Below the pieces are notes generated by a model that worked only from the letters and a program-made list of their open reading frames with translations, searched no databases and was not told where the DNA came from. A program made the translations under genes and the position numbers. Source: Polytrichum commune (Eukaryota; Streptophyta; Polytrichopsida; Polytrichales; Polytrichaceae). Taken from it: 64,000 nucleotides of DNA. How positions within the stretch are numbered: position 1 is the stretch's first letter; every line of letters begins with the position of its first letter. Below are positions 5,509-29,690 of the stretch, piece after piece. The stretch is taken from NCBI GenBank assembly GCA_950295325.1, contig OX485807.1:45104440-45168439 (forward strand), in the 5' to 3' direction.

Positions 5509-5767
5509 AACCCTAAAATTTGCTAATTTGAGATTTTCTCTTCTCTCAAATTAATATATGAACCACAACAACATAGTGTAATGTTTGGGTCGTCCTACCT
5601 AAACCATCTTCATATGAGATCTTAATTGCGTTCTTGATATGAACACCCGCTTCAAAGTATTTGCATCTTACAACATTCTCCAATGTACGTGCGATTTTAT
5701 CCATGTTCTTATATTTGTAACTTTCTCAAAATGCCGAAAAAATCCCAAATTAATGAATATACCGATT
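5509..5767. mobile_element. Mini-element made of both ends of a family-A-like transposon (degenerate)
   Basis: The left edge (about 5509-5560) resembles the A3 left end, including its following stretch CTCAAATTAATATATG. The right part (about 5570-5767) resembles the A right end: CCCGCTTCAAAGT, TTTGCATCTTACAAC, TTCTCCAAT and CTCAAAATGCC occur in the same order as at 17905-18005. The two ends meet with nothing between, as in an internally deleted MITE-like derivative. The terminal bases are diverged and no clear target duplication is visible, so the exact borders are uncertain. The mirror copy lies at 57944-58202. Confidence 0.55.
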
Positions 5768-6420
5768 AAAACAAATGCAGCCTACAAAATTAGTGACTTA
5801 GCCTATAAAATTTTGAAAGTGTAGGACAAAGAGCCTATGGACAATTTAAAAACATAGGATATCAACCTATGTGATAAAAAACATTTAGGAAATTTTGCCT
5901 AAATTTTTTTTAAAATAGAGGATTTTAGCCATTCATCCTTCTTCAAATTGGGAAATTAGTTGGCCTAAGTACATATCTTTAGGCTATATCTTGCAGGAAG
6001 AGTAGAGGTTGAATGAGAACATGGTGAGAACTTTCACCCTTGAACTCATTTGAATTTTAGCAACCTTTCATAACTTATAATCAACTCTTTAAAAAAGACT
6101 TGGTTAATCCTTGGCCTTCAAACGTGGTGAAAGGCTTAGCCAGGTTCAATTCCTGCCAAGGATCCCACTTAGTACTCAAATTTTGATTTTAAAACCTACA
6201 ACATTAAAAGATATGAAGGATTTTAACCTACTAAAAATTAGTTTTGAAGGCAATTGGCGAGGAACTTACAAACTCAAAAGGTTTTCAACTTACAAAAAGT
6301 TGATATTGTAGAATGCAACCTATGCTATGAGGCAAATAGCCTATGTACTCTTAAAGAGGTAGGCCCGCTAAGGGTTTAGAGTCAAGCTTTAGGTTTTAGG
6401 GTTCCTTGTAACCCTGTTTC
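5768..6420. other. AT-rich spacer before the A1 cassette promoter
   Basis: No gene is supported. The region contains a tRNA-like fold (6108-6163) and, near 6365-6412, a telobox-like stretch (AAGGGTTTAGAG, TTTTAGGGTT) just before the CT-rich leader of the cassette. Confidence 0.5.
6108..6163 (+). other. tRNA-like remnant (SINE-like B box)
   Basis: A perfect 7-bp acceptor-type stem (TCCTTGG with CCAAGGA) encloses a perfect T-arm (CAGG-TTCAATT-CCTG). Only 56 nt separate the outer ends, too short for a full tRNA: at least one arm is missing. It is probably a tRNA-derived relic or a degraded SINE head. The copy in A2 is at 57548-57603. Confidence 0.35.
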
Positions 6421-7340
6421 CGTGGGTGCCCTAAACTTGTGGGCACCCTATTCATGCGGTTGGGGGCCAATTCCCGAGGCAAACAAAACCCCAACCGTCA
6501 CATTTTTTCATTCTTTCTTTCTCTCTCTCTCTCTCCGCGCCAAGCTTACGCTCCGCGCTTTGCTTGGAAGCGCCGCCTCTCCTGAAGCGCCGCTTTCGCA
6601 AAGCGCCACGGCGATTCAGGCTTGGTGTGGGTTTTCTTCACATTCACCCGCGTTTTGCTTTCTTCTAATTCTTCTATTTCCCTCCTTCCTCTTGCTCTAC
6701 AATAGAATAGCCGCAGTGCAATCTTGGAAGTTAGGGTTTCTTTTGAAAGAAACAGAAACATACGGAGGAGGGTTTTCGAGCGTGAGTGTGAAGGAAATTA
6801 GTCCAAGACTGTTGAAGAGTGTTGGAAAGTGCTGAGGGAAGTTAGTAGAACATTGTGTAGGAGATAAAGCTTCTGTTTGGGAGGTCCAGGTGTTTGTACT
6901 GGAAGTTTTAGGAGTGCTTGTGAAATTCAAGAGTTCTTTAAGAGTATCAAGAGTTGTTTGAGAGTTTTCGAAGTCGTTTGAGAGATTCAGTAGTTTTGTG
7001 AGGGATTCAGGAGTGGGTTTAGACATTTCGAAGTCTTTTGAGAGGTTTAGTAGTTGTGTGTGAGATTCAGGAATTGGTTTAGACATTTCGAAGTCTTTTG
7101 AGAGATTCAGTAGTTGTGTGTGAGATTCAGGAGTTAGTTTAGACATTTCGAAGTCTTTTGAGAGATTCAGTAGTTCTGTGTGAGATTCAGGAGTTGGTTG
7201 AGAGATCCAAGAGCTGTTTGAGAGAGTTGATAGTTGTTTGAAAGTTTCTCATTGAACTTTCTCACAGTTTGTTTGATATTGAGAATTATTGGAAGAACAA
7301 CTTGCTCTACTCCAAATTGTCTGCACAACATCTTTGAAAG
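6420..7340 (+). other. Leader exon of the A1 cassette (start approximate)
   Basis: The stretch begins with a CT-rich run (6500-6540) typical of plant core promoters and leaders. It ends at a donor, TTTGAAAG/GTATTG, at 7341. The first coding exon starts at ATG 7870 directly after a CAG acceptor, so a non-coding upstream exon is needed. A3 has the same plan (donor at 37870). The exact transcription start cannot be seen. A 60-bp tandem repeat fills its 3' part. Confidence 0.5.
6957..7260. repeat. 60-bp tandem repeat in leader exon (about 5 units)
   Basis: The unit contains CATTTCGAAGTC, TTTTGAGAG and ATTCAGTAGTT followed by GTGTGAGATTCAGGA. It recurs with period 60 at about 6960, 7020, 7080, 7140 and 7200 with slight drift. 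A 149-aa open frame on the opposite strand here comes from the repeat. The mirror is 56451-56754. Confidence 0.85.
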
Positions 7341-7388
7341 GTATTGTATTTTATTTTAACCAATATGTGTTTGTAGATTCACGGTGTT

Positions 7389-7424
7389 GTAGCATACACA
7401 ATGCATAAGCATTGTATATGCTAC
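7389..7424. other. Conserved hairpin in leader intron of A1
   Basis: Two 16-base arms (GTAGCATACACAATGC and GCATTGTATATGCTAC) pair at 15 of 16 positions around an ATAA loop. A3 keeps the hairpin core at 37925-37954 with a changed but still paired outer stem. It lies about 50 bp after the leader donor and before the first palindrome cluster. Confidence 0.6.
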
Positions 7425-7459
7425 ATGCCAAGTTTAAAAAATATATTAAAATAATACTG

Positions 7460-7842
7460 TTTGGGGAGACGACCCAAACACAGCCTCTTGTTTGGGTCGA
7501 CCGACCCAAACACAGCCCCTTGTTTGGGTCGCTCGACCCAAACACAAAACAAAGCATCATGTTTGGGCCGAGCGACCCAAACAAAGTCTTCTAATTATAA
7601 ACTCATAAAGAAATCCATGATATTTTGCATCAATATAAAATTCGCATCAACCCAAAATAATAATCAAGGAATGTATCAAGGAAAAGTATCAAGGAATCCT
7701 GCATGTCACAAACAATATAAAATGCAAATCCACCCAATAATCACAACATTCTTATTATCATTACAAATGATGCTGAAATATAAAAATATACAATCCACCT
7801 AAACCTATTCATGTCATAGATGTTTGGGTCGAACGACCGAAA
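7460..7842. repeat. Palindrome cluster in leader intron of A1
   Basis: The cluster starts with an asymmetric variant, TTTGGGGAGACGACCCAAA (7460). Three sites of the TTTGGGTCG-NN-CGACCCAAA type follow near 7490, 7521 and 7561 (spacers AC, CT and AG; the last has one mismatch). A further site with one mismatch is at 7823-7842. A2 has one extra 32-bp unit here. All lie between the leader donor (7341) and the coding ATG (7870). Confidence 0.9.
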
Positions 7843-9205
7843 CTAACCTTGCACATTATTTTCTTACAGATGGCTCCAAAGAAAAGACCCGGCGAAAGGT
7901 GGTTCATGCCTGCGCCGGACATGTTGTGGCAGGAGCACGAAACCCCGCAGGATGACTCCTATTCCCCTAAGGACGGGCTTGTCCTCGCTTGGTCTATTCA
8001 AGTAGTCAAAGCCTCAACATACAAAATGATTTTTGTTGTCAAGGTGGGAACCGTGGAGAAACACACCTGGGCGACTCTCGCGGGATGGGAGGTCGCATCG
8101 GTACAGTCTCTTGGAGACTATACCGACGTCATCCTCGAGAACTCGGCTGTGCAGAACGCGCATATGTTCATGCACCAGTTCTCCGAGCCTTTCGACGCAC
8201 TCTATGCAAGAGAGTCCTGTGTCGAACCGGAAGTTATCAAGCCGGAGACAATATTTATCGATGGGAGTACATCGAATACCAAGGTCTCAAGCCGGTTCAC
8301 AAAACTAAAACATGCAATAACCGTGCTGAACAGGGGCCTGCAAAGCAAAACCAAATCACAACAACCTGTGAGGCGGAAAGCTCCCACAGAGGAAGGAGCA
8401 GGGTCGTCAAGACCTCAATCGGTGAGGATGCCGCTACCAGTACCGGCTGACTCGCGTAGGACCACTCCCTCCCAAACACCTACGAATAGTGAGACACCTA
8501 CACCTTCTGGGAGCCGTCAAACAACTCCATCCAAGAGGGCGAGAGAGTCATCTGTGATGACTGACGAGCCAGTCTCACCGGAGATGCGCATGCCGAAGCC
8601 AGGCGAAGAGGTGGATGCAGGGGAGCTGCAGAAAATTGTGAACAATTTCACGACGAAATGCTCCCACTGTTTTTTCATGGGCAGGGATTTCAAGTTCGAC
8701 GTGAACATCAGCCAGTGCCATCTAGCGCCATCGGAGAAGTGTGTCCGGGCAAAGGAGGACGCCTACGTTGACTGGATAATCGCGCAGATCGTTTGCGAGC
8801 AGTTTAAAGACGACAGGCAAACGATTGTAGTGATGCCACAGGGTCTCAAGAAAATGCCTACACCTGAAATGTGGCCAACAATTCAGAAGGGCGATTTTTG
8901 GCTGATAGACGGCCAACACAGCGTGGAGGCATCCAAGAAAATCCAACTCATGAATGAGTGGGATGATCCCAACAATCAGAAGGAAAAGCTGAAGGTTTGG
9001 AAGGCACTGGTGGTGTGGTCTGACGACGAGACCAAGCTCAGCGACATCTCCCGGTACTTCAATATGGGAAACAAGAAGAGGGCTTACCAAGCTTCCTGGA
9101 TAAGGAATATCATGGCCTCGCGGGAGGTGTGGGAGTTCTATGGTAGGCCTCCCAAGGAGAGGGAGAATGCAAAGGACAAGAATCCCAAGTGGGAGGTGAG
9201 TATTG

Positions 9206-9321
9206 TTTGGGTCGACCGACCCAAACTCCTGGTGCAGCCTTGTTTATTTAGTTTGGGTCGATCGACCCAAACAACTGTTGCAGTCTTGTGTTTTTTTTTA
9301 GTTTGGGTCGATCGACCCAAA
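9206..9321. repeat. Three palindromes in intron 1 (A1)
   Basis: Perfect 20-bp sites at 9206-9225, 9252-9271 and 9302-9321 (spacers AC, AT, AT) fill the first part of the 217-bp intron 9196-9412. The first starts 10 bases after the splice donor. A3 has four sites in the same intron, and family B has two sites of its own type. Confidence 0.95.
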
Positions 9322-10189
9322 CTCTTGTTGTAGATGTTGGTCATGATATGGTTTGGAAATCACATGTACATATCTAACACGCATTCAAATGTTCTGTTTT
9401 GTTCACGTGCAGGATTTCAAATACCAAATGATCAACAAATTCTCCTCCATTGATAATTCGAGCCACAAGCAAAAGAAATACAGCGACCTCAAGGGGGAGA
9501 TTTACTTGATTACAGCATCGGACTCAGTTTGGAGGAAGTGAAAAACCGTGTTTGAAAAGCACGAGACGGGGGATTTGATCGACCCCGACACTGGCGCTTT
9601 CTTTAGCCTGGCCTCGCGCTTCAAGCAGATGAAGCCTCTCGTGAGAGAGTTCTTTAGAACTCTTCAAGGTCTGTCAGAGACGGAGGTGGAGAAGGCGGCA
9701 TCGCACATCCTGCACGTGGCACCCACGGCGAAGAGGTGTTGGGTGCACCCGAAGATTGTCTTCCAAAAGCCCAAATCCTTCGTTCCTTCATGCTATACCA
9801 TGAAGGAATGGACGGAGAACAGGAAAAAGAAGACGACTATCGTGCAGGAGCTGCATAAATTGGTGCCAGAGAGGAATATTGTCGTGGACGGCGAGGTTCA
9901 TGAGGCTAACTGGAGAGCATTCAAAGATGAATATAAGTTCACCAGTGCCTCCATGGCGGCTCTAATAAGGGAAGCGGGGGACGACTTCTTGCGGGCCAAG
10001 ATGGTGAAGGGTGGGAAGAACCGGGCGCTTCCGGATCACACAGCGCGTGCGTTCTCGAACTTCATCAAGGAGAAGAAGATTGTCAAGTTTGAAGGGGACG
10101 CTTACTTCAACCTTGTCACCTTCGAGCCTTTGAAAATTCAGGGCTGGCCAGGTCAGGACGCCAGAATGGCGATAAGGACGAAAGCAAGG

Positions 10190-13029
10190 TGTGAACCCTT
10201 TGAGTGGTCCACCACTTTGCGGGATCACTTTTAGTTAGAATGTTAGCATTAAAAGTTAGAATTGATAGGGAATTTAGGGAAAATTAGTTCATTTAGCATT
10301 TAGCCTAGAAGAAGGAAGGTCAAAATGAAACTAAGTAGTGCTAGAAGATAGCAAAGTAGAAAAAATATGCTAGCTAGTAAAAACAACTAGCTAAGCAAAT
10401 ATTAGTAGATGCTAGTTATTAAGCAAATGTTAGTAGATGCTAGCTAAGCAAGTGTTAGTTTATTAGTTAGTGTGAGGCACACAAGACTATTGGAGGTGTT
10501 TTACGTAAGAAGATAAAATCGGCGTGAAGAATTTTGAAGACAAAAAAGAAAGAGAGCAAGGGGGATACTTGCCCACTTGCCCCCTTGCCAACTCGATGGC
10601 GGAAAAATTAGAAAGATTTCTAAAGGTTTTTTGTCGGAGCCACCTCGGCGAGAGGGTGGCAACCTCAACCGGGAAAACCCCCGAGCCAAAATTTCGGGAA
10701 AGGGTTTGAAAAATGGATCCGGTGGAGGAGGGGTCCAACCCTTTTGTGAGAGGGTTTAAAAACCCCTCCTTCCACCTTGTAGCTCTCTCTCTTTCTCTAG
10801 TTTTTGGGCGAAGCCCTGCTTTAATGTAGTTAGGAAAAAATCCTTTAGCATGTATTCTCAATGGTCTAAAAGAAAGGCTTGAGAACCTCCTCTACTCTCT
10901 CTCTCCTAGTTAGGTTGTGTGTTTATTAACACACCAACAAAATTATTCCTTTTTTTGTAGAGGTAGGTTGGATGGTAGAGTTTTGAGTAGAGGCATTATA
11001 GACCTCATCTGCCAATGCCCTGAAGGCTTAGTTCAAAAGCTAGAACAAGATACTTATCATTTTTCTCTTAGAGAGATTTCATATAGCTATCCATAGCCGT
11101 TTCCCATTTGTGATTTGGTTGAGATGACAATTAGTTATGGATTTTCAAAGATGGAGTAGAAAAACTGGGTGGTCTTGTGGGTAGCGGCTGCTGGATCAGA
11201 CCTGCGAGCCCAATAGGAATTTTAATTCCAAGAAATTATATTTTTCCCAAGTAGAACTTTTGTGTAGCTTTCCAAAATGGCTTAGAACATTTGATTTGAG
11301 CATGATTTGAATTAGATATGAATTGTGCAAGATGGGACACATAGTTTGAGAACTTTTGGTTGACTGCTGCATTACAGAGGACCTGCTGGGTTCACTTCGG
11401 CTTACCTTTCTAATCACATATTTTTATCAAATACATCTTTTTAATATCTCTCCAGGGTCATATAGAACGTTTGATTTGACTAAGATTTGAATTAGATATG
11501 AATTGTTGAAGGCGAGATACATAGTTTAAGCCTTCTTGATTGACTGCTGTGTTACAAGGAGTCCGCTGAATTTCTATTAGCTTAACCTGCTGATGTCATA
11601 ATTTTTTCTAGTTAGAGCTTGTTCATAGCTTTCCAATGGTATAAGGAAAGCCTAGATCCAAGTAGTAAGGAATGTGCTATGAATTTTTGAAGTTAGAAGG
11701 TAGATAGGTGGGTTGGAAGGGTCGGTTGAATCGACCTCACACTTCCAACCCTCATAACTTTTGCATTTCTTATCCGATTAGAGTGATTTTTAGATCATTG
11801 GAAAGATAATTTGGTGCACTAAGTATAAATATTATGCTTAGGATTAAATTACAGGGCAGAATAACACTTTATATTTTAATTGTTAACTAAGGTACGCTTA
11901 CTACCAAACTAGTTACAAAGAAGGAGGCAAGGTCGACGCTCGGAAAGTGGAGCAAGGAAGGAGGTAGCGGCTCGGCCTACATCAAGCCCAAATCAACCGA
12001 GGAAAATTGAGGTAAATTAACTAACCTTAAGCCTTCCATTTAGGATTGGAGGGAGCACGGCTAAGGTACGCATCTCTAAACCCACTCACCTATCTCGTAA
12101 GGTCAAGTGGCTTGACCACTTGACCGCCAAGGGAGTACCCAATTCCATTGTTTTCGGGGCCCTTGGTATGTTTTGTGGTAGTAGCTTCATTTATTAGCAA
12201 GTTTCGTGTGTGGTAAGTCGGATTAATCACCGACACGACCACTCTGAATGTTGTTGGTGGAAAGGTGGGGTTAATGACCCGCGAATCCACTATTATGTTG
12301 TTGGCCCCATAGATTGGGAGTAATGGCCCCAATTTATGAAGATTGCGCAACAGGTTGAACCTACAGGTCGCCCGTCACCCTGGTCCCATTGAGTTGCATT
12401 TCGTGGTCTATCCAGTGTAAACACATTTAACAATCAAAACATACAAAATAAATCGTAAACCCTTGTTGGCAAGAGACCCGAGGTAAGGGGTGATGCCTAA
12501 TATGTTAATGTAGTAAGTTAGGACGTGCAAACAAAAGTAAGTAATTAAGAAGGAATTTGTGTGAAGGGTGGGACTTAGGCCAAGTTCCCCCGCTTAGAAA
12601 ACTAAATAGAAATAAATAAAGAAATAGGAAGAATTGAATGGTCCATCAAATTGTCGTTATTCCGTTCGTTGAGTTGGGGTGGTATGAGTCACACCCGGTT
12701 GGGTGTATCAGAACCATCCCAATTCACAAATTAGGATTGCCTTGGTTTCAAGGCTGGTGCGTCTGCGCGTAGAATAGGTTGTAGGTTAAGGTTAGAACTA
12801 GATATGAAATTGGTTAGTGGAGTTTAAAGCCACACTAGTAAAAAACTAAGGCCTAACCTCCGGAGGTACTACGACGCATATTTAATCTCCCTTAAAAATC
12901 TAACTACTCACGTTATACACCTATCATCCGGGTTCGGCTTGGGCGCCTGCAAATGCAGGCCACCTTCACCGAAGGGCTTGTGTGATACTTTTAGGCTCCC
13001 TCGAAAGGGGGTGGCCCAAAAGTACCACA
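10190..13029. mobile_element. Probable solo LTR inserted in exon E2 (TSD CAAGG)
   Basis: The insertion begins TGTG and ends CACA, and is flanked by CAAGG at 10185-10189 and 13030-13034. Removing it and one CAAGG restores the exon exactly as in A2 (AIRTKA/RDRFPF, reverse strand near 53490). No long open frame, direct end repeats or primer-binding site were seen inside, so a solo LTR of a large retrotransposon fits best. It contains a Thr/Ser-free AT-rich body and a strongly folded 3' end. A non-autonomous element of another class is possible but the TG...CA ends with a 5-bp duplication favour an LTR. Confidence 0.65.
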
Positions 13030-13034
13030 CAAGG
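12976..13034. other. Inverted repeat at the 3' end of the solo-LTR-like insertion
   Basis: The left arm starts CTTGTGTGATACTTTTAGGC and the right arm, read in reverse complement, starts CTTGTGTGGTACTTTTGGGC. The fold uses the flanking target bases CAAG of the duplication. The end of the insertion therefore sits in a hairpin-forming stretch. Confidence 0.5.
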
Positions 13035-13618
13035 GACCGCTTTCCATTTGGGATGATTGATTTCAGGAATATTCCTGGAGGCTCATTTGAGGGCACAATG
13101 AGCACCCTCTTCTATGACCCCTTCCTATCTAAGTTCGTCGATTATGCAAGCCCTAAGTTCAGGGAGGTAGATATCTGGCTTTGAATAATCGAGGATAGGA
13201 GGGCGGAGCAGGTGTACGAGCTTGTCCGGAAACTGCAGCCGGAGTATGCAGTCTCCAAGTCTCACTACATCGCCGCACCGGCGGAGGGGGCTTACACGAC
13301 GTTGAGGGACAAGAAGACCAAGTTCGTCAACGTCTTGTGTTTGTACTTTGTGTACAAAGCGGAGTTGTTGAAGGTGCCGAACCACCCTATATCCCGGATG
13401 GACAAACTCTTCCAAGTTCCAGAAGGGTTGAGTGCCAACAAGTGCCTCTACGACGAGGCTAAATACACGAACTATCCTTTAGATGAGCTGCGGATGGAAT
13501 TTTACATGAGAATGATGAGGACGCTGACGAGGAGAGGGGACTGCATCTTCAACGTCTTCGGAGGCTCAAAACCTGTCTATGCTGCTATGGTAAGTGACTT
13601 TCTATAGCTCGTAAGCAG

Positions 13619-13710
13619 TTTGGGTCGATCGACCCAAACTAGGCTCTTTGCAGGTTTGGGTCGACCGACCCAAACTAGGCTTTTTGCAGGTTTGGGTCGA
13701 CCGGCCCAAA
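13619..13710. repeat. Three palindromes in intron 2 (A1)
   Basis: Sites at 13619-13638 (spacer AT), 13655-13674 (AC) and 13691-13710 (AC, one mismatch: CGGCCC) are spaced exactly 36 bp apart in the intron 13590-13785. Confidence 0.95.
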
Positions 13711-14904
13711 CTACACATTTCACTTAGTCTTGTATATGTGACTGCCTCGACAAATTCTAATTTCCCTATAACTTGGATTGTGTAGATGTCGGGGCTGAAT
13801 ATATACTCCTACATAGAGGATGGCGATCTGCCATTTTATAGGGTGCAGAAATCGCTGGCGAAGAAGATGGACATCCTCGATTGGATCCCGGGTAGCTACG
13901 TCGACGAGGTTGTTCAGGGTGGCGAAAACCCTCTTGATAGGGTGAGGCGCATCAACCCGGAGGAAATGGCCATGAGGGCCACGACCCAAGTTCCCGAACC
14001 TCTGGTCGGGTTGCATCCGGGCAATCCGTCCCGCACAGAAGGTGGCGAGGTTGAGGAGGAGGAGGAGGAAGCAGAGGAACACGAGGAGGCGGAGAAGGAA
14101 GGCGACGTCGAGGAAGGGGCAACGGGCTTCACGCAACAATCCGAAGCCCCTCAACGGAAGAAGGCGATGCGGGCGGCAACCCCGCAGAGTAAGCTCGTGC
14201 CCGTCCTGACTGTGGACGATGCACGGGACATGTACTCCAGGGACGCGACCGCCACGTTCAGGGAGAGGAGGAAGTTGAAGGGGAAGAAGCTGTATGGCGA
14301 CTACTCCGTGGAGGAGACCATTGCCATAAGCAGCGAGGACGACGATGATATTGAGCTCGCCAAACGGCTCAGATCAGATCCCCCCTCCCCGACAGCGTTC
14401 GCTGGCATGGTTAGGGTGAAGCCCGAGGTCCTGACTGTGGAGGAGGCGAACGAGAAGATGAGGAGGGACGAGGAGCAACGCGTCCGTCTGCAGAAGGCTG
14501 CCGCTGAAGAGCCCTCAATGCGGAACGAGGTAGCAGAGCTGAGGGCTCTCCTGTTGGAGCAGGAGCGACAGAGGGCGATGGCCCAACCTCCGTCCCACGC
14601 CGAATTGATATCACAAGTGATACAAGGAATGTGGGCGCAAGGTTTGGTGGTGGCTCCCTCCAGCTCCTTCCCGCACTTGCCCCCCGGCTTCCCTCCGCAG
14701 AGCATCCCTCAGCAGCCTGTGCCGCAATCGTCTTTCAGCTTCCAGCACTTGATTCGGCCCCACCAAGTTCCGTACGCGCCGGTCCAGCAAGTGGATGACC
14801 CCAACATCTGGCGCGTCTTTGGAGCCTCCTCCCCTTTGGGCCCTCCACCACTTCGGCCCCCCATAGTCATGGCGCCCCCTCACCAAGCGGACGACCCCAG
14901 GATG

Positions 14905-14993
14905 TTTGGGTCGACCGACCCAAACCCACCATCCACTGGAGTGTCCGAAGGGCCCTCTCCAGATGCAGGACAGTTTGGGTCGGGCGACCCAAA
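14905..14993 (+). repeat. Two palindromes inside coding exon E3 (A1)
   Basis: 14905-14924 (spacer AC) encodes the peptide FGSTDPN, and 14974-14993 (spacer GG) encodes FGSGDPN. Both are perfect 20-bp sites lying in the open frame of the Pro-rich C-terminal part of E3. A3 has two at the matching place (49945-49964 and 50014-50033). Confidence 0.95.
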
Positions 14994-15296
14994 CCCCGTT
15001 GCAGCGCAGTCCTCCCTTGACCAACATGGGTGTCAACTAGACACGGCCATGCTAGATGTTGAAGGCCTGCAAGGGCCTGGTGATACCTCTACTCCTAACC
15101 AAATCGATGAACGCATGCATGATGCACATGCGGAGATTGGTTTAGGACAAGGGCCTGATGCCGATCGTTTGCAGGAGAAGGTTCCTGACGTCGTCGGAGA
15201 AGGCGGTGGCGAGAGAGGCGGGGCAGCGGGGACGGTGGAGGCTTCCACATCGTCGAGACATGACCAGGGCGAGGTAATACACTGAGCCCTCCCCAG

Positions 15297-15316
15297 TTTG
15301 GATCGACCGACCCAAA
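15297..15316. repeat. Palindrome in intron 3 (A1)
   Basis: TTTGGATCGACCGACCCAAA carries one mismatch from the palindrome and lies 24 bases after the E3 donor (15274). A3 has a perfect site at 50318-50337, and A2 the same mismatched site at 27742-27761. Confidence 0.9.
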
Positions 15317-16688
15317 CTTCCTGGGTCATTGTCTTGTTGGCGTGGTCGTGTCCCCCTTGCTAGGAGGAAATGCACACCCCCTGCCCCCCCCCCATGCTCT
15401 ACACTTGCTCCCCCTCCCCCCAACGTGCCCCCCCGCGATCCCCTTCGTCTCACCTGCACTCGACTACGCTCGACCTTGGCGGCGCGCAACCAATTTTGTA
15501 GATGTAGAATTAGGGTAGTGTGAATGCCCTCGTTCACCGCGGTCCCCCCCAATCAAATTGTACATAGAGATTTGTAAAAATAAAATTATTATTTTTGGCG
15601 CCCATATGTTTGCATCCGTGTCCCAATGTATGTTGTTCCCCTTGTATGTTTTTGTTGCCACCAATGGTCCAATTCTTCTTGTGTTTGCACAAAATTTCCG
15701 TTCTGCTTGAGATGGACATAGCATAACATAGTCCTCGTCCGCCTTCTCTCGCTCGTCGCCGCAGGGTTCGGAGCATAGCGTCGCAGCTCCCCACCGATCC
15801 TCTCCGAGGAGTGTGGAGGACAGCGCGGTGGTCCCCCCGATTTTGCCCTCGCCACCTTCGCCTCCCAAGACCCGGTTCCTCGTGCTAGACCTCAACGGGG
15901 TCCTTGTCCAGTGCGTGCATTGTCCGAGGGTCCCTACGGTGCCTTTCTGCAAGCCCGAGGACGCCAACTACGATGGACCCCCCGCGTACATCAAAAGCAA
16001 GCTAGTGTACCTCCGCCCGTCCCTTCGGCGCTTCCTACAGGTCGCCCTATCCAAATGGTGGGTGATCATTTGGAGCTCCATGAAGTCCGAGAATACCCAG
16101 GCCGTCGTGGAGTTCATCTTCAAGGGACTCCAACCCCCGTGCTTGGTCCTAGGACATGATTCTTGTAAAACATTATACACCCCCGAGGGCAGGGTTGTGA
16201 AGAAGCCCAACAACCCCGCCGTAAACCAATTTCTTAAGGTCTTGAAGCCAGTCGTATGGGACCAGCGTCCGACCATGGTCGGCTGTCCCTACGACGTTCG
16301 CCCCACCCGTGACAACACGTTGATGGTGGACGACAGCGCTTCCAAAAACATTTTGAACCCGACCTCGAACTTCATAGTTTGCCCCACGTGGACGGTCGAG
16401 AAGGTCCGAGACCGCTTTTTGTTAGACCTACTTAAGTACATTCAAACGCTCGTGGGGAGCGGACTACCCGTGCCCCGGTTCCTTAGTTGTAATCCGATAG
16501 GCGAAAGATACATGGATCCGAAGGACTATATGTACAGAGAGTTGTACGCTCACGCGAAATATAATAAACTCATTTGAGATACTACATGGTGTGCCATTGT
16601 GTGTGATATATTATGCCTCAATTGTATATCGATTTTCACATGCTCCCCCCTCCCCTTGGGTTTTGTTTTGTTTCTTTTTTTGCGCCAG

Positions 16689-17492
16689 GTTTTGGAGCCC
16701 TCGATTGAGATCGTCAGCGAATCAAACTTGGGGAGCTTCTTCTACGAGACCGTCTACGATGCCGCGTCCACCATCGACTACTCCAAGGAGCCTATCAACG
16801 CCGGCGTCGTCGATAGCCCCCCACCCAAGCAAATCTTCCGGCCATCTCTGTCCCCGTCGCCGCTCAAGGGCATAAATCGCAAATGCATCCGGACGTCCCC
16901 CTCTCGGCCCGGCGGCAGTATTACACCTCAACGGCGGCTGCGGATGGACGCTCGGCCCACGAAGAGTGGCACCCTTCCTATCCCTTTGCGGGACGCCTTG
17001 CCCCTCCTCGCCAACTCCGACGGGAACGCCCCCGGTGACAAGGTGAACCCCCCCCCCCCCAAAACATGGTTAACCGCGCATTACAATCATCCCGCACTTA
17101 AAAATTGAACGTGTGACACGTTTGGGTCTTCCTCCCTAAACTAACACATGTGTTCTTGCATTGACGCGTTGCAGGTTGCTCCCACCCGTAAACCTATGCG
17201 GGCTAGTGCGTCCGTCGAGTTGGAGCGTTTCTACTCCATGACCAGAAATGCAAGACAGTCCACTTCATCGTATTCGAATTCTTCGTCGTATAATTCGGGC
17301 GGCCGACGGAATCCAAAATGTGTTTTTGATGGCGGTCACCCCAAGAATGGCTATAGTCGCGGGGCGGAGATTTTCAGGAATGTTGAAGCAATGCGAGCAA
17401 AAGAAGCCGCAGCAAAAGAAAAAGAGGCAAAAGTAAAAAAAGAAAAAGAAAATGAAGCAAAAGAAAAAGAGGTAGTCTCCGAGGCTAGATAG
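16689..17492 (+). CDS. Cassette exons E5-E6 of A1 (separate or alternative C-terminal product)
   Basis: E5 is 16689-17042 (118 codons) after a CAG acceptor, ending GACAAG/GTGAAC. E6 is 17175-17492, ending at TAG. Both are phase 0 and join into one frame. E5 is Ser/Pro/Arg-rich (SPSPLKG, SRPGG). E6 has a Ser/Tyr-rich stretch followed by a Lys/Glu/Ala helix-forming tail (KEKEAK repeats). The E4 frame stops at NKLI-stop before E5 in every copy, including family B. These exons must therefore be read from another transcript. Phase would allow E3 to splice straight to E5. No known domain recognised. Intron 5 contains a relic site (TTTGGGTCTTCCTCCCTAAA). Confidence 0.5.
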
Positions 17493-17529
17493 GCCATAGT
17501 AGGCGTAGGGTTTTGGGCCATAGGCAAGA

Positions 17530-17870
17530 ACATTTTGGGTCGCACTATCCAATGGATGTGTGGTGTTAGCATGCTATGCATTTTACATGCCACACTTTGT
17601 ATGTTTTTTTTTGCAATAATATAAGTGTCACATGATTTCCCCTTCCATATGGTCTAAGGTTTGGATTGCCCTACCTAAACCATCACAAATATGAGTTTGG
17701 AATATTTTGTATGTTATATTATATTGGTTCACATATTTCCCCTTCAATATGATCTATGGTTTGGATTGCCCTACCTAAACCATATTCATACAAGTTTTTG
17801 TGCGATAATATGAATGTTTTAAGATTTCCCCTTCAACTTGGCCTAAGGTTTGGATTGCCCGCCCTAAACA
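17530..17870. repeat. Subterminal relic palindromes near A1 right end
   Basis: Four sites decayed from the TTTGGGTCG-type palindrome occur near 17533, 17660, 17757 and 17848, about 90-125 bp apart. Three share the form TTTGGATTGCCC.ACCTAAA or close to it. The same decayed forms are kept at the matching end of A2 and of A3 (52736-52960), which are otherwise diverged. Confidence 0.7.
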
Positions 17871-18003
17871 ATCCCAAATATGAGTTATTAATGGGGTTCT
17901 TGTTCTAAACACCCGCTTCAAAGTGTTTGCATCTTACAACTTTCTCCAATACGTGTTCCATTTATCCTTGTTCTTATTTCTGTGAATGTCTCAAAATGCC
18001 CAA

Positions 18004-18031
18004 AAAGTCTCAATTTAACGAATATAGTGTT
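18004..18031. repeat. Terminal inverted repeat, right end of A1
   Basis: The 28-bp end reads, from outside in, AACACTATATTCGTTAAATT and on to GAGACTTT. It is identical to both ends of A3 (29663-29690 and 53097-53124) and to the A2 end at 25025-25052. The flank outside it is CCTT (18032-18035). Confidence 0.9.
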
Positions 18032-19953
18032 CCTTGTGTGTTGCCTGGAAAGGAATATGTGTCGTTCTTGTATGTTTCAGGACGCGCTCCCGAATTTAAC
18101 GAGGTGGTATTATAAGTAGAATACGAGGGCGTTTGCGAAAGGGAACGTCTTGCGCTTCTCCGGAGGGGCAGACAACGATCGAACTCGGAAGATGCGGCCT
18201 TGAGGGCGTGCCTATCCAAGGAGGACGTGGAGGAGGGCCGGGCACCAAGCGAGCGGGTAGCCACCTGCGAAACAACGTCATAGGAAGATAAGAATAGGAA
18301 TGGAGTGGGGAAAATAATGAGGGCGGTTTGGGATGGGCGCTCGTAAAGAGAACGGCACGCAAACGGAAGACAAGGAAAGCAAAAGCGGGAAAGGGGTTGA
18401 GGGTTGAGGAGGGCACCTTGGCTTTGGGGACGTCCATGCGGGGAACGGTGGGAACGAGGGGGGCGTCGATGGGAGCATCCGGAGCCGATGGAACTATTGC
18501 AATGTTGGATGGCGGGGGGGAGTCGAGGCGTGGAGGGCCCACGATCGCGGAGGACGTTGCGGGGGGAGGAACGGAGTCGGCGGGGGAGGTGTGGCAACGG
18601 GGGCCTTCCATGCGGAGACGCCGGCTCGGCCCGCGACGAGCGACGGCGTCGTCCCTCGAGGGCGAGAGGTGTCCCAAACGAACGAGCGTCCGTTTCTCCT
18701 TGGAGAGGGGGGAGGGCGACGGGGCGTAGGCGCGGGCGACAAGTGCTGGGGGCGGGCTGTTGACGACGCCGTCGTCGATGCCGACATCGCGGGAGTAATC
18801 CACGGCCGAGGCCGCGTCAACCGCCGAGAAGTGGTAGAGGGATGGCATTTGGAAGCCCGTGACGTCGCGGGAAGGGGATGCGGGGGGGGGATAGGGGACG
18901 GGAAGAGCCGTCGACCACAGGGGCGTCGCATATGGGGGCAGACTATGGGCAAGAACAAGAACAACAACAATCACAACAACAAAAGGCATCCAAAAACGGA
19001 GCAAGCATTAGATATGTGAACCACATGATAACAAGCAAAGACATGGAGGCATTTCAAATCAATTTATTGAGTTTGGCGAGCCTCATGATGCTCTTATATA
19101 CATTATCGCGGGGGCTTAGCGCCGCATTGCCGAAGGGGTTGGACCTAACAAAAAATGGGATGCTACCGGCGTGGAGCCCGAGCCTTCTAAGGTAGGGGGC
19201 TAGCCTATCAACCAAAAAGGTGTCTTGCCTATCGCCGGTCCAAGTGTCCGGGAAGATGACGTTGCCCGGGGGGTTCAAGACGCTTTTGGTGGGGTTGTCG
19301 TCGATGAGGAGGGTGTTCTCAGGAGTCGGCCACCACCCGTGGGGTGTCCCCTGCATTCGGGGAACGCCTCGCCAGAGTTTGGAGCGGAGGACCTTGAGGA
19401 ACTGTTGTCCTCCGCCTCGACCGCCAAACTTGGGCACCGGTCGGCCTTTCTCGTCGAGCAGCTCGTCGCAGTCCTCTTGGCCGAGGACGAGGCAAGGGCT
19501 CGGGAGATCACGGAACAAGAAGTCCACGATGGGCTCCGTGTTCTCCATGACCATGGAGCTCCACACAACGACGTGGGCGAACTCGACCACCTCGCGAAGG
19601 AAGTTGCGGCGCCGGGACGGGCGCGCACAGCCTTGCGGTTAATGAGGGCGTCGAGCTCGCCGTCATAGTCCCTTTCGTCGGGGTGACGGAAGGGACGCGT
19701 GGGGACCCTGGGGATGTGTTGGGTGTGACACAAGACCCCGTTGAGGTCAAAAACTACGAAAGGCTTGTTCCAAGTGTGAGGTCCACTGGTCGAGGGGTTG
19801 CGACCTATCTCCGGGGGGTCCTGTGATGAACAACGCGACTAGTTTAATGCTATGATCCAATAATGAAATTTTTGCGTAGAAAATGAAGACGATGCATTAT
19901 GGAAAAAGACGAGGAAGTGAGGAGAGTGCAAGGAAAATGTGCACAAGGGCACA

Positions 19954-20367
19954 CTTGCGAATGACCGTTCGTGAATGAAGGCTGCGGGGGCGGTGCATTT
20001 ACGAGCGGTCGTTCGTGAAGGAGGTGGACACGGGGCCGCACCCTTTCACGAACGAGCGTTCGTGAATGAGGTGGATACACAAGAATGAACATAATCGCAT
20101 CAACATCCACAATATACGAGAAGGGGTCGAGGGCAAAGAATTTGAAGAAATGCGATGCAGATAATATGGGTCTATATATTAATCCGTTGAATATTTACAT
20201 TTCTCACGTGATAGTCTATCACATTTTCCTAAGGCAAAATGATGCCGTGTCCTACAAAACTGGTCGTCCATAAGGGGGGTCGCTGAAGAGGGCTCGCGTG
20301 GGCCAGGGGTGTCGATGAAGAGAAAAACACCGCGATGTTAGTGAGGTTACGAACGCGCGCTCGTAAA
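19954..20367. repeat. Family-B palindromes in intron 3
   Basis: Four sites of the GAACG-NN-CGTTC type occur at 19954-19975, 19998-20019, 20045-20066 and 20346-20367. The second and third read TTCACGAACG or TTTACGAGCG on one side, so this intron holds drifting variants. They occupy the intron that carries one GGGTCG-type site in family A. Confidence 0.8.
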
Positions 20368-20452
20368 AAATGGTATTCTCAGAGGAGATTTACCTCGTCA
20401 TCGGGGGGAGGGGAAGCGGCGCTGGACCGAGCAGCAGGTCCCTCCTCAACGA

Positions 20453-20850
20453 TTAACGAACGCGCGTTCGTAACCTCCACAGCCGCAGCCGACTCCGTTT
20501 CCATGGCGTCGGCCTCACGCTCCGACTGAGAGGCCTGTGTCTGCTGGATGCGCAGCACGTTGTCATCCTCGGCGCCCAGGTCGAGCGCGTCCATCCGGAC
20601 ATCCTCCATCCACGCGGCAGGGGTCTCTTCCACGTCCATCCCCTGCTCTCCTACTGCGTCATTGGGGCTCCCCTGCGTGTCCTCCACAATGACCATGTCA
20701 GTGTGTCGCGCAAAGTCATCGCCCTGTCTGTCTACTACCCTGGGGACGACGGTGAAAGACGACGTGTCGGTGTCTGAGGGCAGTCCTACCCTTGAAGGGG
20801 GAGGGGTGAGGGCTGCAGGACCTGAAGATTCACGAACGCGCGTTCGTAAA
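20453..20850 (-). repeat. Two family-B palindromes inside coding exon E3
   Basis: Sites at 20453-20474 and 20829-20850 (both with spacer CG) lie in the open frame of E3. They encode VTNARSL and LRTRVRE. Family A also has exactly two sites in the C-terminal part of E3, with a different sequence and different peptides. Confidence 0.9.
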
Positions 20851-21871
20851 TCTTCGTCCTCCTGGATGGCCGCCGCGACAGCATCGTGGGAGGTGGCCGA
20901 GGGAACTTCTGGGGGCGGAGGAATCCCAACATGCGTAGGGTGGGGCGCGGAGTGGTGTGATGGTCCTCCTGGGAAATGGCCCTGCGGGGGGTACTGGCCT
21001 AGCGGGGGGTATTGCGATGGGTATCTTCCAGGGAAGGGGTAAGCCGGCTGGGGGGGCGCCGAGAAGCTCTGCATCTTGTTGAGCATGGCGAGGATGGCGT
21101 CCGTCTTCTCGTTGGATTGCCTTAGCTCCTCCTGAATTGCTTTCATCTTCTTCGCATTCTCCTCAGCAGCCTTCGCCATGTCCTCCTTCATCTTCTGCTC
21201 GAGCTCGGCGTTAAGCTCGGCGACGGAGAGGGCCTCCTCCTTGACCCGCTTGTTCTTGTCGAAGTCGACCCCCAGCTCGACCATTATCTCCATATCTCCC
21301 TCGTCCTCGTCGGAGACCTCGATGATTGCCCCCGGAGGCAGCTCCACGTAGGGGGTCTTCTTCATCTTCCGCCTAGTGTTGCGGAAGTGGTCCAACGACG
21401 GGCGGGAGCGTTGGTCCAGAAGGTCGAGGTTCTCCATCTTGGGAACCACGACTGGCCTGGGCGACACCGATGTCGAGCATCCCCCGGGAGTGCCGAATGC
21501 CTCCGCTCCAGACGTTCTCGCGGGGAGGACATCTTGGGTTGTCCCCGCGGACGACCCCGTGTATCCACCCGGAGTCCCCTGCACGTCGGATGGGTTTCCC
21601 GACGGCCCCAAAATTCGCAGAGGCGTGACGTCCAAGGATCGGAGGATCGCCTCGACGTTGTAGGAGGGCGCGGGCTCGTCGTCGTCCGTCTCCATGGCGG
21701 GCATGCCCTCGTCGACGGGCATGTTGATGTCCGTCCTCGGGAGGGACATGTCCTCCAGGTCCATCGTGGAGGCCTTCGCCCTGTGCACCTGGAAGTCCTC
21801 CTCGTTGATGGCGTCAATGAAGCTGTTGACGACCAGCCCCAGCATCTGAGATCCAAGAAAATACGTTAGAA

Positions 21872-21967
21872 TATACGAACGCACGTTCGTAAACATCAAC
21901 GACGAGAAACAATGTCGTCAAAACCCAAGACAAGTTGAGGTGAACTTTACGAACGAGCGTTCGTAAA
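21872..21967. repeat. Two family-B palindromes in intron 2
   Basis: Sites at 21872-21893 (spacer CA) and 21946-21967 (spacer AG) lie in the intron between 21846 and 21986, matching the intron that holds three sites in A1. Confidence 0.92.
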
Positions 21968-23343
21968 TATTAGTTGGAGAGCTTACCATCGTAGCGTACA
22001 TGAACTTGCTGCCTCCACAAACGTTGTACACGGTCTCTCCGCTTATTGCCACGCTCTGCAAAACGGAGACGTAGAACTCCAACCTGAGTTCCATCGCCGG
22101 GAAGATGGTGTACAAGGTCTCCTGCAGCAGATCCTTGGGAGGGGGATGGGGGATGCTGTAGATCTTCTTGAACGTAGTATTCGCCCTGACAGGGGCTCGC
22201 CCATTCCGAAGCGCGTTGTACGTCAAGAAGACGAGGCTGACCGCCCCCACCTGTTTGTTTCCCCTGGCCTCGTTGATGGCCACGATCCCTTCCGTCTTGG
22301 CGGGCACGTAAGTGCTGTGGAAGATGCTGTACTCGAATTTGATTGACTTCTCGTACAGGTCGACTACAGCAGAGAGCTTCTCCTGCTCGACTATCCACAG
22401 CCAAACGTGAGGCTCCCTCATGTCCGGCGACTTGTGCTCCTTGAACTTGGTCATGAAGGGGTTGTAGAAGGGCATGTCCTTCACCCCCTGCCTCGACGCA
22501 CCGGGGATCCCCCTGAAATCGATCAGGGCAAATGGGCACCCCCGTCGATCCTCCCTCACCTCGGCCCTGTTCATGGTCCGGTCCCACTTGGAAAATGTGA
22601 CCCTCTCCACTCCGCTTGTCACCAAACAAAATCTGGCCACTCCTTCGAATGTGGCCAACCTCTTCCGCGCCAAAAAGCTTCTGTATTGCTCCACCTCCTG
22701 GGGATCCGTCTCGGTTTTCTTTGTCCTCTTGTTCCCCTTCTGCTTCAAAATGGAGGCGTGCTCCTTGACAAGACAACGCATTGAGGCTCCGGAAATGTTG
22801 TAGTCGACCTTGAACATCTTCCAACTAGCCCAATTAACGTCTCCGTCGGCTAAGATGAATGCGTACTCCGGTATTAGGCCGCTCAACTCCCTCATTGCAG
22901 CAGTCTTCAACTTGCGGTGTTCGCACCATTCCTTGATGGAATACGTGCCGGGCTTGTGTCTTGGCCTCTTCAAAAATATCTTCGGGTATGGGATGGTTCT
23001 TCCCACTGTGTTCCCAAGAAGATGCACCGCGCACCTCTGCAACTCGGACTATGTTAACCCTTGAAGGGACCTGAAGAACTCCCTCAGTAGTGGAGGGGCC
23101 TCCCCGGTCTTCTCAGCGCTGTATTTCTCCTCGGTGTCGGGGTTGACCAGATCGCCCGAGCTGTGCGCATCAAAAAATTGTGTCCACAACTCCCAAGTGT
23201 CCCTGTTGCAATAGATGAGGCGGAGCTCACCCTTGAGCTCCAGGACAGACTTGGTTGTTGTAGACTTCATGTCGATGGAGGAGAACTTGTCCACCATCGC
23301 GTCGCAGAATGCCTGCAGCAAGAAAGGCATCAGTAACGCACAA

Positions 23344-23428
23344 AATACGAACGCACGTTCGTAAATTTGAATGTCAAAGAACTTGAAAATTTGAATGTCA
23401 AAGATATTTACGAACGTTCGTTCGTAAA
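23344..23428. repeat. Two family-B palindromes in intron 1
   Basis: Sites at 23344-23365 (spacer CA) and 23407-23428 (spacer TT). The second ends five bases from the E1 splice donor, as close as in family A. Confidence 0.92.
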
Positions 23429-24757
23429 CTCACCTTCCATTGTTGAGACGGCGTCTTCGCGTTCTCCCTTTCTTTAGGGGGGCACCCGTGGACGACCCAG
23501 ACGTCCCTTGCAGCCACTATGTTGGCTGCCCACAACGCCTCGAAGGCCTTGATCTTGTTGCCGGAGTTGAGGAAGGTGGATATCTTCCGCAGCTTGTCCC
23601 AATCGTCCGACCACACCAAGAACGCCTTCCAGTAGCGCAAGTCCTCCTTCAGCTCATGCTGGAAGTTGTCGTCCTTGAGGATTATCTGGGACGCCTCCAA
23701 GCTGTGTTGTCCGTCTATGATCCAGAACTCTCCATTCTGGATCCGTGGCCAGTCCTTCTCCGTCGGACGGGATGTCAGCCCCTTCGGCATGACGCAGATG
23801 GTCTGCATGTCCCACTTGACATTGTTCATTAGATTATTGATCTGCCACTTCACACCACCGCTCTCGCGAGAGCGAACCACCCATTTGTTGGGGGACATCT
23901 CGCACTTGAAGCAGTCCACGTTGAATGTGAAGTGGCGTCCCATGGGCCAGCAATCCTTCGAGTAGTTGTTGAAGTCTCGAAGGATCCTCGTGGCCTTCAC
24001 AGCGTCAGGGTTCTCACCCTTTTTCAAGGGGGTAGGCATTACGACAGGCGAGGTCACCTCCGCGGTCTCTGTTACTCCCGATTTCTCCATCTCGTCCCTT
24101 GTCCTCTTCGATGGCGTGGAGTGTCTACTGGGGCCCTCCGTCGCCCTGCTCGCGGAAGGCACATGCCTGGGTGCACTTTTAGATTCTCCTGCCCCTGATG
24201 TGGATGGTTTCCTGGGGCTCTTCTTCTTCTTGTTTGCCTCAGTGACCACACTGTTGTATTTGGAGATGTTCAATGCAAGGGCGGTCAATTTTCTTGCCGT
24301 CCAGTATGGGCTCAACGCATATTTGGAGAAGAGGCCGTCCAGGTCGAAGTGCTTGGCATCTTCCACTACGTTATTGGTGGCGTATTGGTAGGAGAATGTA
24401 TGTTTCTGGAAATGCAACAAGAGGTTGATATGATCCTTCTTGTTCTTCATGTCCATAATTACATACTCCCCCTGGGCCTCTGTGGACTCTATCTCCCACG
24501 TCTTCATTTGAACCCACTGTTCAGGCTGGTCCACTCTGGTCTCCAGCTCGTAGGTGAAGCGCATGCAGAAGAGGCCGTCTCCGATCTTCTCTGGCAGTGC
24601 CGTCCACTCCCCCATGAAGTCTTCCTTGGGGACATAGTTGTCGTTGCCGTTGTCGTCTAACACCGACTCTGGGAGGCGATCGACCTTCACCGCGAACATC
24701 TCAATGGCGCTTCTGCTTGATCTTGCCATCTGCAACAGAATATAAACAATTAGTGAC

Positions 24758-25003
24758 TTTACGAACGAACGTTCGTAAATGACATGCATATCCCACATAC
24801 TACGCAGTGTTAATGCGTCTTTGCAATTGATGTAATTATATTTATGAACGTTCGTTCGTAAATGAGGGGTTGCAAGATAATATAAATTTTTAGTATTGAG
24901 TTTACGAACGAGCGTTCGTAAAAGATATGAAGATCAAAGAGACTACTCGTCATGAATGTATTTGCAATATATTTGGTTATTTTTGCGAACGATCGTTCAT
25001 AAA
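24758..25003. repeat. Family-B palindromes upstream of E1
   Basis: Four sites at 24758-24779, 24841-24862, 24901-24922 and 24982-25003 (spacers AA, TT, AG, AT; two have one or two mismatches) lie just upstream of the CAG/ATG start. This is the position of the leader-intron cluster in family A. The B sequence stops at 25024 where A2 begins. Confidence 0.92.
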
Positions 25004-25024
25004 AGATATAGGTTTTCTAGATTT

Positions 25025-25052
25025 AACACTATATTCGTTAAATTGAGACTTT
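25025..25052. repeat. Terminal inverted repeat, inner end of A2
   Basis: The same 28-bp end as at 18004-18031, in the opposite orientation. It starts AACACTATATTCG next to family-B sequence. Confidence 0.9.
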
Positions 25053-25563
25053 TTGGGCATTTTGAGACATTCACAGAAATAAGAACAAGGATAAATGGAA
25101 CACGTATTGGAGAAAGTTGTAAGATGCAAACACTTTGAAGCGGGTGTTTAGAACAAGAACCCCATTAATAACTCATATTTGGGATTGTTTAGGGCGGGCA
25201 ATCCAAACCTTAGGCCAAGTTGAAGGGGAAATCTTAAAACATTCATATTATCGCACAAAAACTTGTATGAATATGGTTTAGGTAGGGCAATCCAAACCAT
25301 AGATCATATTGAAGGGGAAATATGTGAACCAATATAATATAACATACAAAATATTCCAAACTCATATTTGTGATGGTTTAGGTAGGGCAATCCAAACCTT
25401 AGACCATATGGAAGGGGAAATCATGTGACACTTATATTATTGCAAAAAAAAACATACAAAGTGTGGCATGTAAAATGCATAGCATGCTAACACCACACAT
25501 CCATTGGATAGTGCGACCCAAAATGTTCTTGCCTATGGCCCAAAACCCTACGCCTACTATGGC
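25053..25563. repeat. Subterminal region of A2 with relic palindromes
   Basis: Mirror of 17493-18003: AT-rich, no gene. It holds the decayed sites GGTTTAGGTAGGGCAATCC near 25275 and 25377, a third near 25190, and a fourth near 25505. Confidence 0.7.
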
Positions 25564-26368
25564 CTATCTAGCCTCGGAGACTACCTCTTTTTCTTTTGCT
25601 TCATTTTCTTTTTCTTTTTTTACTTTTGCCTCTTTTTCTTTTGCTGCGGCTTCTTTTGCTCGCATTGCTTCAACATTCCTGAAAATCTCCGCCCCGCGAC
25701 TATAGCCATTCTTGGGGTGACCGCCATCAAAAACACATTTTGGATTCCGTCGGCCGCCCGAATTATACGACGAAGAATTCGAATACGATGAAGTGGACTG
25801 TCTTGCATTTCTGGTCATGGAGTAGAAACGCTCCAACTCGACGGACGCACTAGCCCGCATAGGTTTACGGGTGGGAGCAACCTGCAACGCGTCAATGCAA
25901 GAACACATGTGTTAGTTTAGGGAGGAAGACCCAAACGTGTCACACGTTCAATTTTTAAGTGCGGGATGATTGTAATGCGCGGTTAACCATGTTTTGGGGG
26001 GGGGGGGGGTTCACCTTGTCACCGGGGGCGTTCCCGTCGGAGTTGGCGAGGAGGGGCAAGGCGTCCCGCAAAGGGATAGGAAGGGTGCCACTCTTCGTGG
26101 GCCGAGCGTCCATCCGCAGCCGCCGTTGAGGTGTAATACTGCCGCCGGGCCGAGAGGGGGACGTCCGGATGCATTTGCGATTTATGCCCTTGAGCGGCGA
26201 CGGGGACAGAGATGGCCGGAAGATTTGCTTGGGTGGGGGGCTATCGACGACGCCGGCGTTGATAGGCTCCTTGGAGTAGTCGATGGTGGACGCGGCATCG
26301 TAGACGGTCTCGTAGAAGAAGCTCCCCAAGTTTGATTCGCTGACGATCTCAATCGAGGGCTCCAAAAC
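25564..26368 (-). CDS. Cassette exons E5-E6 of A2
   Basis: E5 is 26368-26015 and E6 is 25881-25564, identical in plan to A1: a Ser/Pro-rich E5, and an E6 with a Lys/Glu/Ala tail ending KEVVSEAR. The intron between them has a poly-G/C run whose length differs from A1 (26000 versus 17050), a usual slippage site. Confidence 0.5.
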
Positions 26369-29662: not shown

Positions 29663-29690
29663 AACACTATATTCGTTAAATTGAGACTTT
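29663..29690. repeat. Terminal inverted repeat, left end of A3
   Basis: Starts AACACTATATTCG, identical over 28 bp to the right end. The flank is ATCC at 29659-29662. Confidence 0.93.

Follow-up and report, generated by a model that had tools for sequence, protein, structure and literature searches.

What reads the palindromic sites that recur throughout a cluster of related transposons in Polytrichum commune, and do these sites change together with the protein that recognizes them? The cluster occupies a 64,000-nucleotide stretch of contig OX485807.1 (positions 45,104,440–45,168,439 of the forward strand), hereafter the window; neighboring sequence was also read, for a local total of 114 kb, and coordinates are window positions, with negative values and values above 64000 lying outside the window on the same chromosome. 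The window is made up of nested DNA transposons, with spliced genes, runs of CCCTAAA, and long terminal repeat (LTR) retrotransposons. Elements I, II, and III carry palindromes of type A; III lies inside II, and I and II lie inside an older, minus-strand element with palindromes of type B. The A elements encode two minus-strand exons, T2 and T1, followed on the plus strand by a leader intron, exons E1, E2, and E3, and a NIF-type phosphatase-like exon, and the gene order in the B element is the same. From sequence comparison, we favor, with moderate confidence, the view that E1, probably with E2/E3, binds the palindrome of its own element as a dimer, and that protein and sites evolve together.

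Two families of palindromic sites

Sites were called with up to 3 mismatches inside the window; outside, up to 1 mismatch was allowed for types A, C, C2, and A3 (see below) and up to 2 for B arrays. The A palindrome, TTTGGGTCG-NN-CGACCCAAA, has 88 matches in the window against 0.07 expected, and the B palindrome, TTTACGAACG-NN-CGTTCGTAAA, has 13 against 0.00 expected, all within 19998–25003, which bears out the two families described in an earlier, sequence-only reading of this DNA. Segments in which at least 9 of the 10 arm pairs match number 103 (82 A-like, 8 B-like, and 13 other), compared to 0–3 in 20 Markov controls. The sites are 22 bp long, with a 10-2-10 arrangement. The 2-base spacer is free, as had been proposed: 10 of the 16 possible dinucleotides occur in the A sites of elements I and III, and a scan of spacers of 0–11 bp between perfect arms recovered only the 2-bp spacing (168 of 168 for A and 22 of 22 for B). 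Among the 59 A sites of these two elements (23 in I and 36 in III, with up to 3 mismatches), arm conservation is 93–100% and flanking columns reach at most 54%. The half-sites, initially put at 9–10 bp, are 10 bp in B as stated but not 9 bp in A, where the outermost G/C is kept in 93%/100% of the 59 sites; with a 10-bp A half-site, A and B have identical shapes. Calling the two sequences wholly different overstates the contrast: when A (GTTTGGGTCG) is placed in register with B (TTTACGAACG), T2, T3, G6, C9, and G10 are common to both, and intermediates exist elsewhere.

The numbers of sites in elements I, III, and B, respectively, are 4, 8, and 4 in the leader intron, 3, 4, and 2 in intron 1, 3, 2, and 2 in intron 2, 2, 2, and 2 in exon E3, and 1, 1, and 3 in intron 3 (Table 1). 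Every compartment for which corresponding positions had been claimed is thus occupied, and the introns correspond; the E3 sites, however, are not at homologous codons, with the A pair 69 bp apart, the B pair 376 bp apart, and an exon that is of low complexity there and 27% identical between A and B. Sites are present in the interval to which they were originally assigned, with further ones outside it, chiefly in the transposase-side arrays of elements I and III. None of the 36 A sites of element III falls in the T1, T2, E1, E2, or NIF-type exons (p 1e-8), none of the 23 in element I falls in an exon other than E3, and none of these 59 is in the retroelements inserted within I and III. In the B element, 11 of the 13 sites are intronic, against an intron share of 16% in the B stretch (p 1e-7), and the E3 site at 20453 deviates from the consensus exactly where the consensus would produce an in-frame TAA. 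Between elements I and III, 207 of the 220 site columns in the leader and introns 1–3 (free spacer included) and 42 of the 44 in E3 are identical, compared to 74–80% of the other aligned columns of these regions. The tandem units are 78 bp long in III versus the 56–66 bp spacing in I; given that the repeat units differ between the A elements, the same palindrome has been amplified within different repeats.

The site groups within one genome switch type together. Both B elements of this locus have B-type arrays on the transposase side (11 sites at 68538–69487 and 9 at 85319–86038, allowing up to 2 mismatches), and 6 further B sites lie in the severed part of the B leader outside the window. In the 114 kb of local sequence, every A site belongs to element I, II, or III (at up to 3 mismatches within the window and up to 1 beyond), and sites of types C, C2, and A3 were not found (up to 1 mismatch); the two A2 matches correspond to hybrid sites in the leaders of I and II. 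A hybrid with an A left arm and an A2 right arm is the final leader site ahead of E1 in both I (7823–7842) and III (38592–38611), and visual inspection shows a similar A/A2 hybrid in the N flank of protein P0020. At matching places in the 3′ regions of I (17120–17869) and III (52187–52962), within about 0.2–0.9 kb of the right end, lie several imperfect A-like sites (GTTTGGATTGCCCTACCTAAAC and similar sequences; mostly 4–5 mismatches), which may have decayed or may belong to another factor.

Palindrome type follows the E1 phylogeny

Three protein searches for E1 relatives produced 49, 30, and 45 matches, together representing 91 different proteins, most of which come from short contigs of assemblies with the source tags ena, lgn, jgi, and ncbi. 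The only relatives bearing a plant's name are proteins of Physcomitrium patens; another match is labeled uncultured cyanobacterium. Many of the relatives are open reading frames (ORFs) that extend into intron 1 or start in the leader intron, so that the peptide reveals the palindrome. Among the 60 readable flanks, 44 contain a peptide that fits a CG-ended 9-2-9 palindrome, compared to 0–3 in 12 shuffles. Six half-sites were obtained, namely, A (GTTTGGGTCG), A2 (GTTTCGGTCG), A3 (GTTTCGGGCG), B (TTTACGAACG), C (TTTACGGACG), and C2 (TTTACGGCCG), with the outermost base unread in some of those decoded from peptides. In register, all six retain nTTnnGnnCG; A and A2, A2 and A3, B and C, and C and C2 are each separated by a single-base step, and A3 differs from C2 at 3 of the 10 positions.

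In a quick tree computed solely from the exon columns of 66 E1 rows, A, B, and C form clades with support values of 100, 100, and 99, respectively (Shimodaira-Hasegawa-like approximate likelihood ratio test, SH-aLRT). The comparison of palindrome type with E1 clade had been set beforehand, and the outcome is the fewest possible changes: on the 35 singly typed rows (19 A-like, 7 B, and 9 C-like; one to three sites per protein, with 31 of the 66 rows unlabeled), the A/B/C distribution requires 2 changes, the minimum, compared to at least 9 in 300 shuffles. The six half-site types require 6 changes versus at least 15 in 300 shuffles, with A2 found in two places on the tree. The arms are fixed across A-type rows with E1 identity down to 62%, which is more than descent alone explains. 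Of the original proposal that a factor and its sites changed together, the tracking of E1 clades holds, with the qualification that the transposase of the same element is tracked equally.

A sites across the genome

The exact A pattern has 9,731 matches genome-wide (407.8 Mb, 64 contigs), compared to 0 for the reversed control. The first places listed all lie on contig C1 below 2.2 Mb, and we followed 12 stretches around them. Element genes are present at three places (L016–L017, L018–L019, and L020–L021). Six other stretches (L012–L015, L022, and L023) contain 1–9 perfect A sites each, and tblastn with T1, T2, E1, E2, E3, and the NIF-type sequence gave no match in them. Two of these, L015 and L023, have in common a second repeat family (L023:2452–7834) with arrays of A sites in 32-bp units. 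An even spread of the palindromes outside the elements, which would have spoken against a dedicated system, is not seen in the 114 kb of local sequence, but this second family holds A sites without E1.

Other palindromes were also noticed on C1. In L023, CCCTGTGCGT-TA-ACGCACAGGG lies close to ORFs with DGNHR and DLTCSTG stretches, which we take to recall ParB-like and DNA methyltransferase motifs, and for which Pfam found nothing; L014:2884–5948 contains ten copies of a perfect palindrome, GGTGTCTCGG-TA-CCGAGACACC, in long tandem and inverted repeats.

What reads the palindromes

The C-terminal domain of E1 of element III has a ParB-CTPase fold in the predicted structure, and the N-terminal domain gave weak PH-like matches. 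We propose that E1, probably with the E2/E3 products of the same transcription unit, would bind the 22-bp palindrome as a dimer at the array beside the transposase gene, in the leader intron and introns 1–3, and in the low-complexity tail of exon E3. Protein and sites would co-evolve, so that families sharing a genome could avoid cross-reaction, and, by analogy, E1 might mark the element's own DNA, allowing the transposase and E genes to escape host silencing or to be switched on. The most secure of these steps is that an element-encoded protein reads the sites, given that two site types are present in one host; dimeric binding, suggested by the free center of the palindrome, is second; the identity of the reader as E1 or E1-E2 rather than T1/T2, suggested by good sites that lie well away from the element ends and all along the E introns, is third; and the role, either keeping the element expressed against silencing or plain activation, is the least secure.

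A bolder version, which we consider possible but doubtful, is a eukaryotic ParB/parS-like system, in which the ParB-fold protein would load at clade-specific palindromes, spread, and keep the element from silent chromatin. Loading followed by spreading along the element could reach genes several kb away, an attractive but unproven feature, and protein and sites would change in concert by way of intermediates that differ by one base (A, A2, A3; B, C, C2).

Several observations weigh against the favored explanation. No palindrome of the expected form is found in 16 of the 60 readable flanks. The A/B/C split amounts to only two changes deep in the tree, the type of most rows is inherited, and the shuffling makes no correction for kinship. 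The occurrence of A sites in the second repeat family without E1 implies that the link between sites and E1 is not exclusive, and because the transposase and E1 reside in the same element, the tracking of E1 by itself cannot separate E1 from T1/T2. In E1, no DNA-binding motif was found, and GQHS takes the place of the P motif, GxxR (63 of 65 rows have the S), a substitution that speaks against a canonical CTP (cytidine triphosphate) clamp; the predicted structure of E2 has a predicted local distance difference test (pLDDT) score of only 36.

The rival explanations differ in the reader, the role, or both. It has a modest chance of being the case that E1-E2 is an ordinary activator of its own element and the palindromes are enhancers, with silencing unaffected: the anatomy fits equally, with arrays flanking the transposase gene and a filled leader intron, but sites across the gene bodies, including exon E3, would be unusual for simple promoter control, and VANC-like systems match more closely. 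Binding by the transposase (T1/T2), with the palindromes serving transposition like subterminal repeats, is unlikely. The sites are confined locally to the elements, the largest arrays adjoin T2, the transposase also differs between A and B (identity of 64–66% for T1 and 56–63% for T2), and the imperfect A-like sites approach the right ends of I and III. Transposases normally bind terminal repeats, however, and here the terminal repeats contain no sites; good sites, with up to 3 mismatches, begin 3,810 bp and stop 2,786 bp from the ends of element III and are found all along the introns and also in one exon.

A host DNA-binding protein or silencing factor as the reader is quite improbable: all six half-sites retain the inner CG-NN-CG, which leaves room for a role of CG methylation or of a CG reader, but A and B types share one host genome and one locus and follow the E1 clades, for which a host factor accounts poorly. 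Neutral repeats generated by slippage and gene conversion, with clade tracking reflecting descent, would agree with the tandem arrangement of several site groups and with the fact that any inherited sequence follows phylogeny; this is very improbable, given arms that stay constant among A-type rows while flanks and spacer vary, the presence of the same palindrome in unlike units, and the joint switching of site groups. As for RNA hairpins involved in splicing or RNA binding, many sites are indeed in transcribed introns, but a 2-nucleotide loop is too tight, so that the stem would shorten, some single-arm variants break pairing without G-U wobble (others would wobble), and array sites need not be transcribed, which makes this explanation extremely improbable.

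Organization of the elements

Terminal repeats, target-site duplications (TSDs; CCTT, ATTT, and ATCC, and CTTT in a second B element), and T1/T2 in one unit identify these elements as DNA transposons. T1, with its DUF7869 domain, is presumably the transposase; its only further Pfam row is TraI_2 (0.21), and no row was obtained for T2. In Pfam searches, E1, E2, and E3 had no match above the cut-off, and there was no DUF1985 row. E2 is broken in all three cassettes examined (by a solo LTR and two stops in I, by an LTR retrotransposon in III, and by a stop in B), and E3 of element III also shifts frame. Active NIF-type members usually show DxDx(T/V); the NIF-type domain here (15764–16577 and 50799–51609) reads DLNGV and so may be inactive.

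Element III is inserted within E2 of element II, and the uninterrupted counterpart of the insertion site is visible in element I. Elements I (1–18031) and II (25025–64000) are near-identical, in opposite orientations, and both inserted in one B element; 4635 of 4638 tail positions are identical between these inverted near-copies. Their later insertions and duplications differ, which argues against an assembly artefact. Outside the window, the first B element contains T1/T2 and more B sites at 64887–69487; the flanks of its termini, when compared, have no common 4-bp duplication. The second B element (76042–90104) retains T1, T2, a NIF match, and B sites, and no E1 match was found in it; it is possibly a non-autonomous copy.

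Table 1 Features of the nested elements and positions of their palindromic sites
Feature	Position	Strand	Remarks
Element I (A type)	-1044 to 18031 (right part, 1..18031, in window)	+	Terminal repeats at both ends, TSD CCTT flanking both
T2 of element I, transposase-side exon	1058..2575	-	84.8% over 500 amino acids vs T2 of III
A-site array beside T2, element I	2755..3265		9 sites, spacing 56–66 bp
A sites, leader intron of element I (4)	7491..7842
E1 exon of element I (442 amino acids)	7870..9195	+	86% vs E1 of III
A sites, intron 1 of element I (3)	9206..9321
E2 exon of element I	9414..13591	+	Broken by solo LTR and two in-frame stops
Solo LTR in E2 of element I	10190–13024		TSD CAAGG
A sites, intron 2 of element I (3)	13619..13710
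E3 exon of element I	13786..15273	+	Contains two A sites
A sites, E3 of element I	14905–14924, 14974–14993		In frame as FGSxDPN
A site, intron 3 of element I	15297..15316
NIF-type phosphatase-like exon of element I	15764..16577	+	PF03031, E 2.3e-13
First B element, part between I and II	18032..25024	-	Cut by insertion of I and II; terminal repeats at -1527 and 73643
B sites, intron 3 (3)	19998..20367
E3 exon of B element	20394..21845	-	Contains two B sites
B sites, E3	20453–20474, 20829–20850
B sites, intron 2 (2)	21872..21967
B sites, intron 1 (2)	23344..23428
E1 exon of B element (432 amino acids)	23434..24729	-	35% vs E1 of III
B sites, leader intron (4)	24758..25003
Element II (A type)	25025 to 64875 (25025..64000 in window)	-	TSD ATTT; interrupted by element III
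Element III (A type), complete	29663..53124	+	TSD ATCC; 28-bp perfect terminal repeat AACACTATATTCGTTAAATTGAGACTTT
T1 of element III, DUF7869-domain protein	30198..31679	-	PF25273, E 1.1e-42
T2 of element III, second transposase-side exon	31680..33352	-
A-site array, element III	33474..34898		19 sites in 78-bp tandem repeats
A sites, leader intron of element III (8)	38064..38611
E1 exon of element III (442 amino acids)	38640..39965	+	C-terminal domain: predicted ParB fold
A sites, intron 1 of element III (4)	39975..40165
LTR retrotransposon in E2 of element III	41164..48237	+	974-bp LTRs; carries no sites
A sites, intron 2 (2), E3 (2), intron 3 (1) of element III	48675..50337

Comparison with known systems

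Two hypothetical proteins of the moss P. patens, P0079 and P0080, are relatives of E1, and P0079 also aligns with E2; both are deeply diverged (24% for P0080 vs E1 of III and 21–33% for P0079 vs E2 pieces).

The VANDAL elements of Arabidopsis are Mutator-like. VANDALs encode VANA, VANB, and VANC, the last with DUF1985 (PMC5735166, PMC10398659). The sequence-only reading had cited them as a parallel, which applies to behavior but not to the transposase or the accessory protein. Both systems combine a large plant DNA transposon and an accessory protein with family-specific short motifs that are repeated in the element's own non-coding DNA and form tandem repeats, and in both, related families carry different motifs. 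VANC6 motifs are also described in the unrelated element AT9TSD1 (PMC5735166), a case resembling the A sites in the second repeat family without E1. In contrast to VANDALs, the transposase here is of the DUF7869 type with 4-bp duplications, E1 has a predicted ParB fold in place of DUF1985, and the sites are 22-bp palindromes, some in a coding exon, rather than 8–9-bp motifs. With both the transposase and the accessory domain differing, we rejected membership in VANDAL/VANC; anti-silencing, the role of VANC proteins in VANDALs, is only an analogy here.

With respect to the fold, the regulators ParB, Noc, KorB, and VirB are relevant, and VirB is a ParB-fold protein that relieves silencing (PMC10770331, PMC12704722); in a 2025 survey of the ParB fold, sulfiredoxin is given as the commonest eukaryotic member. 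The resemblance to ParB/parS lies in the modeled ParB-CTPase fold of E1 and in palindromic sites scattered around the genes concerned. Differences include the eukaryotic transposon setting, GQHS for GxxR, the apparent lack of a helix-turn-helix or C-terminal dimerization domain, and no ParA seen; ParB membership was rejected on the P motif.

The site system is real and clearly non-random, its support is now stronger than in the sequence-only reading, and it would represent transposon-encoded, sequence-specific self-recognition built from parts unrelated to the known ones. If so, plants evolved such a system, with family-by-family drift of the code, at least twice from unrelated proteins, and the ParB fold, in eukaryotes mainly sulfiredoxin, enters transposon biology. 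The graded half-sites (A, A2, A3; B, C, C2) and their matching proteins would provide a natural experiment on DNA-binding specificity and the joint change of dozens of sites. For an anti-silencing or activating role of E1, VANDAL/VANC offers the precedent by strategy, and VirB the precedent by fold.

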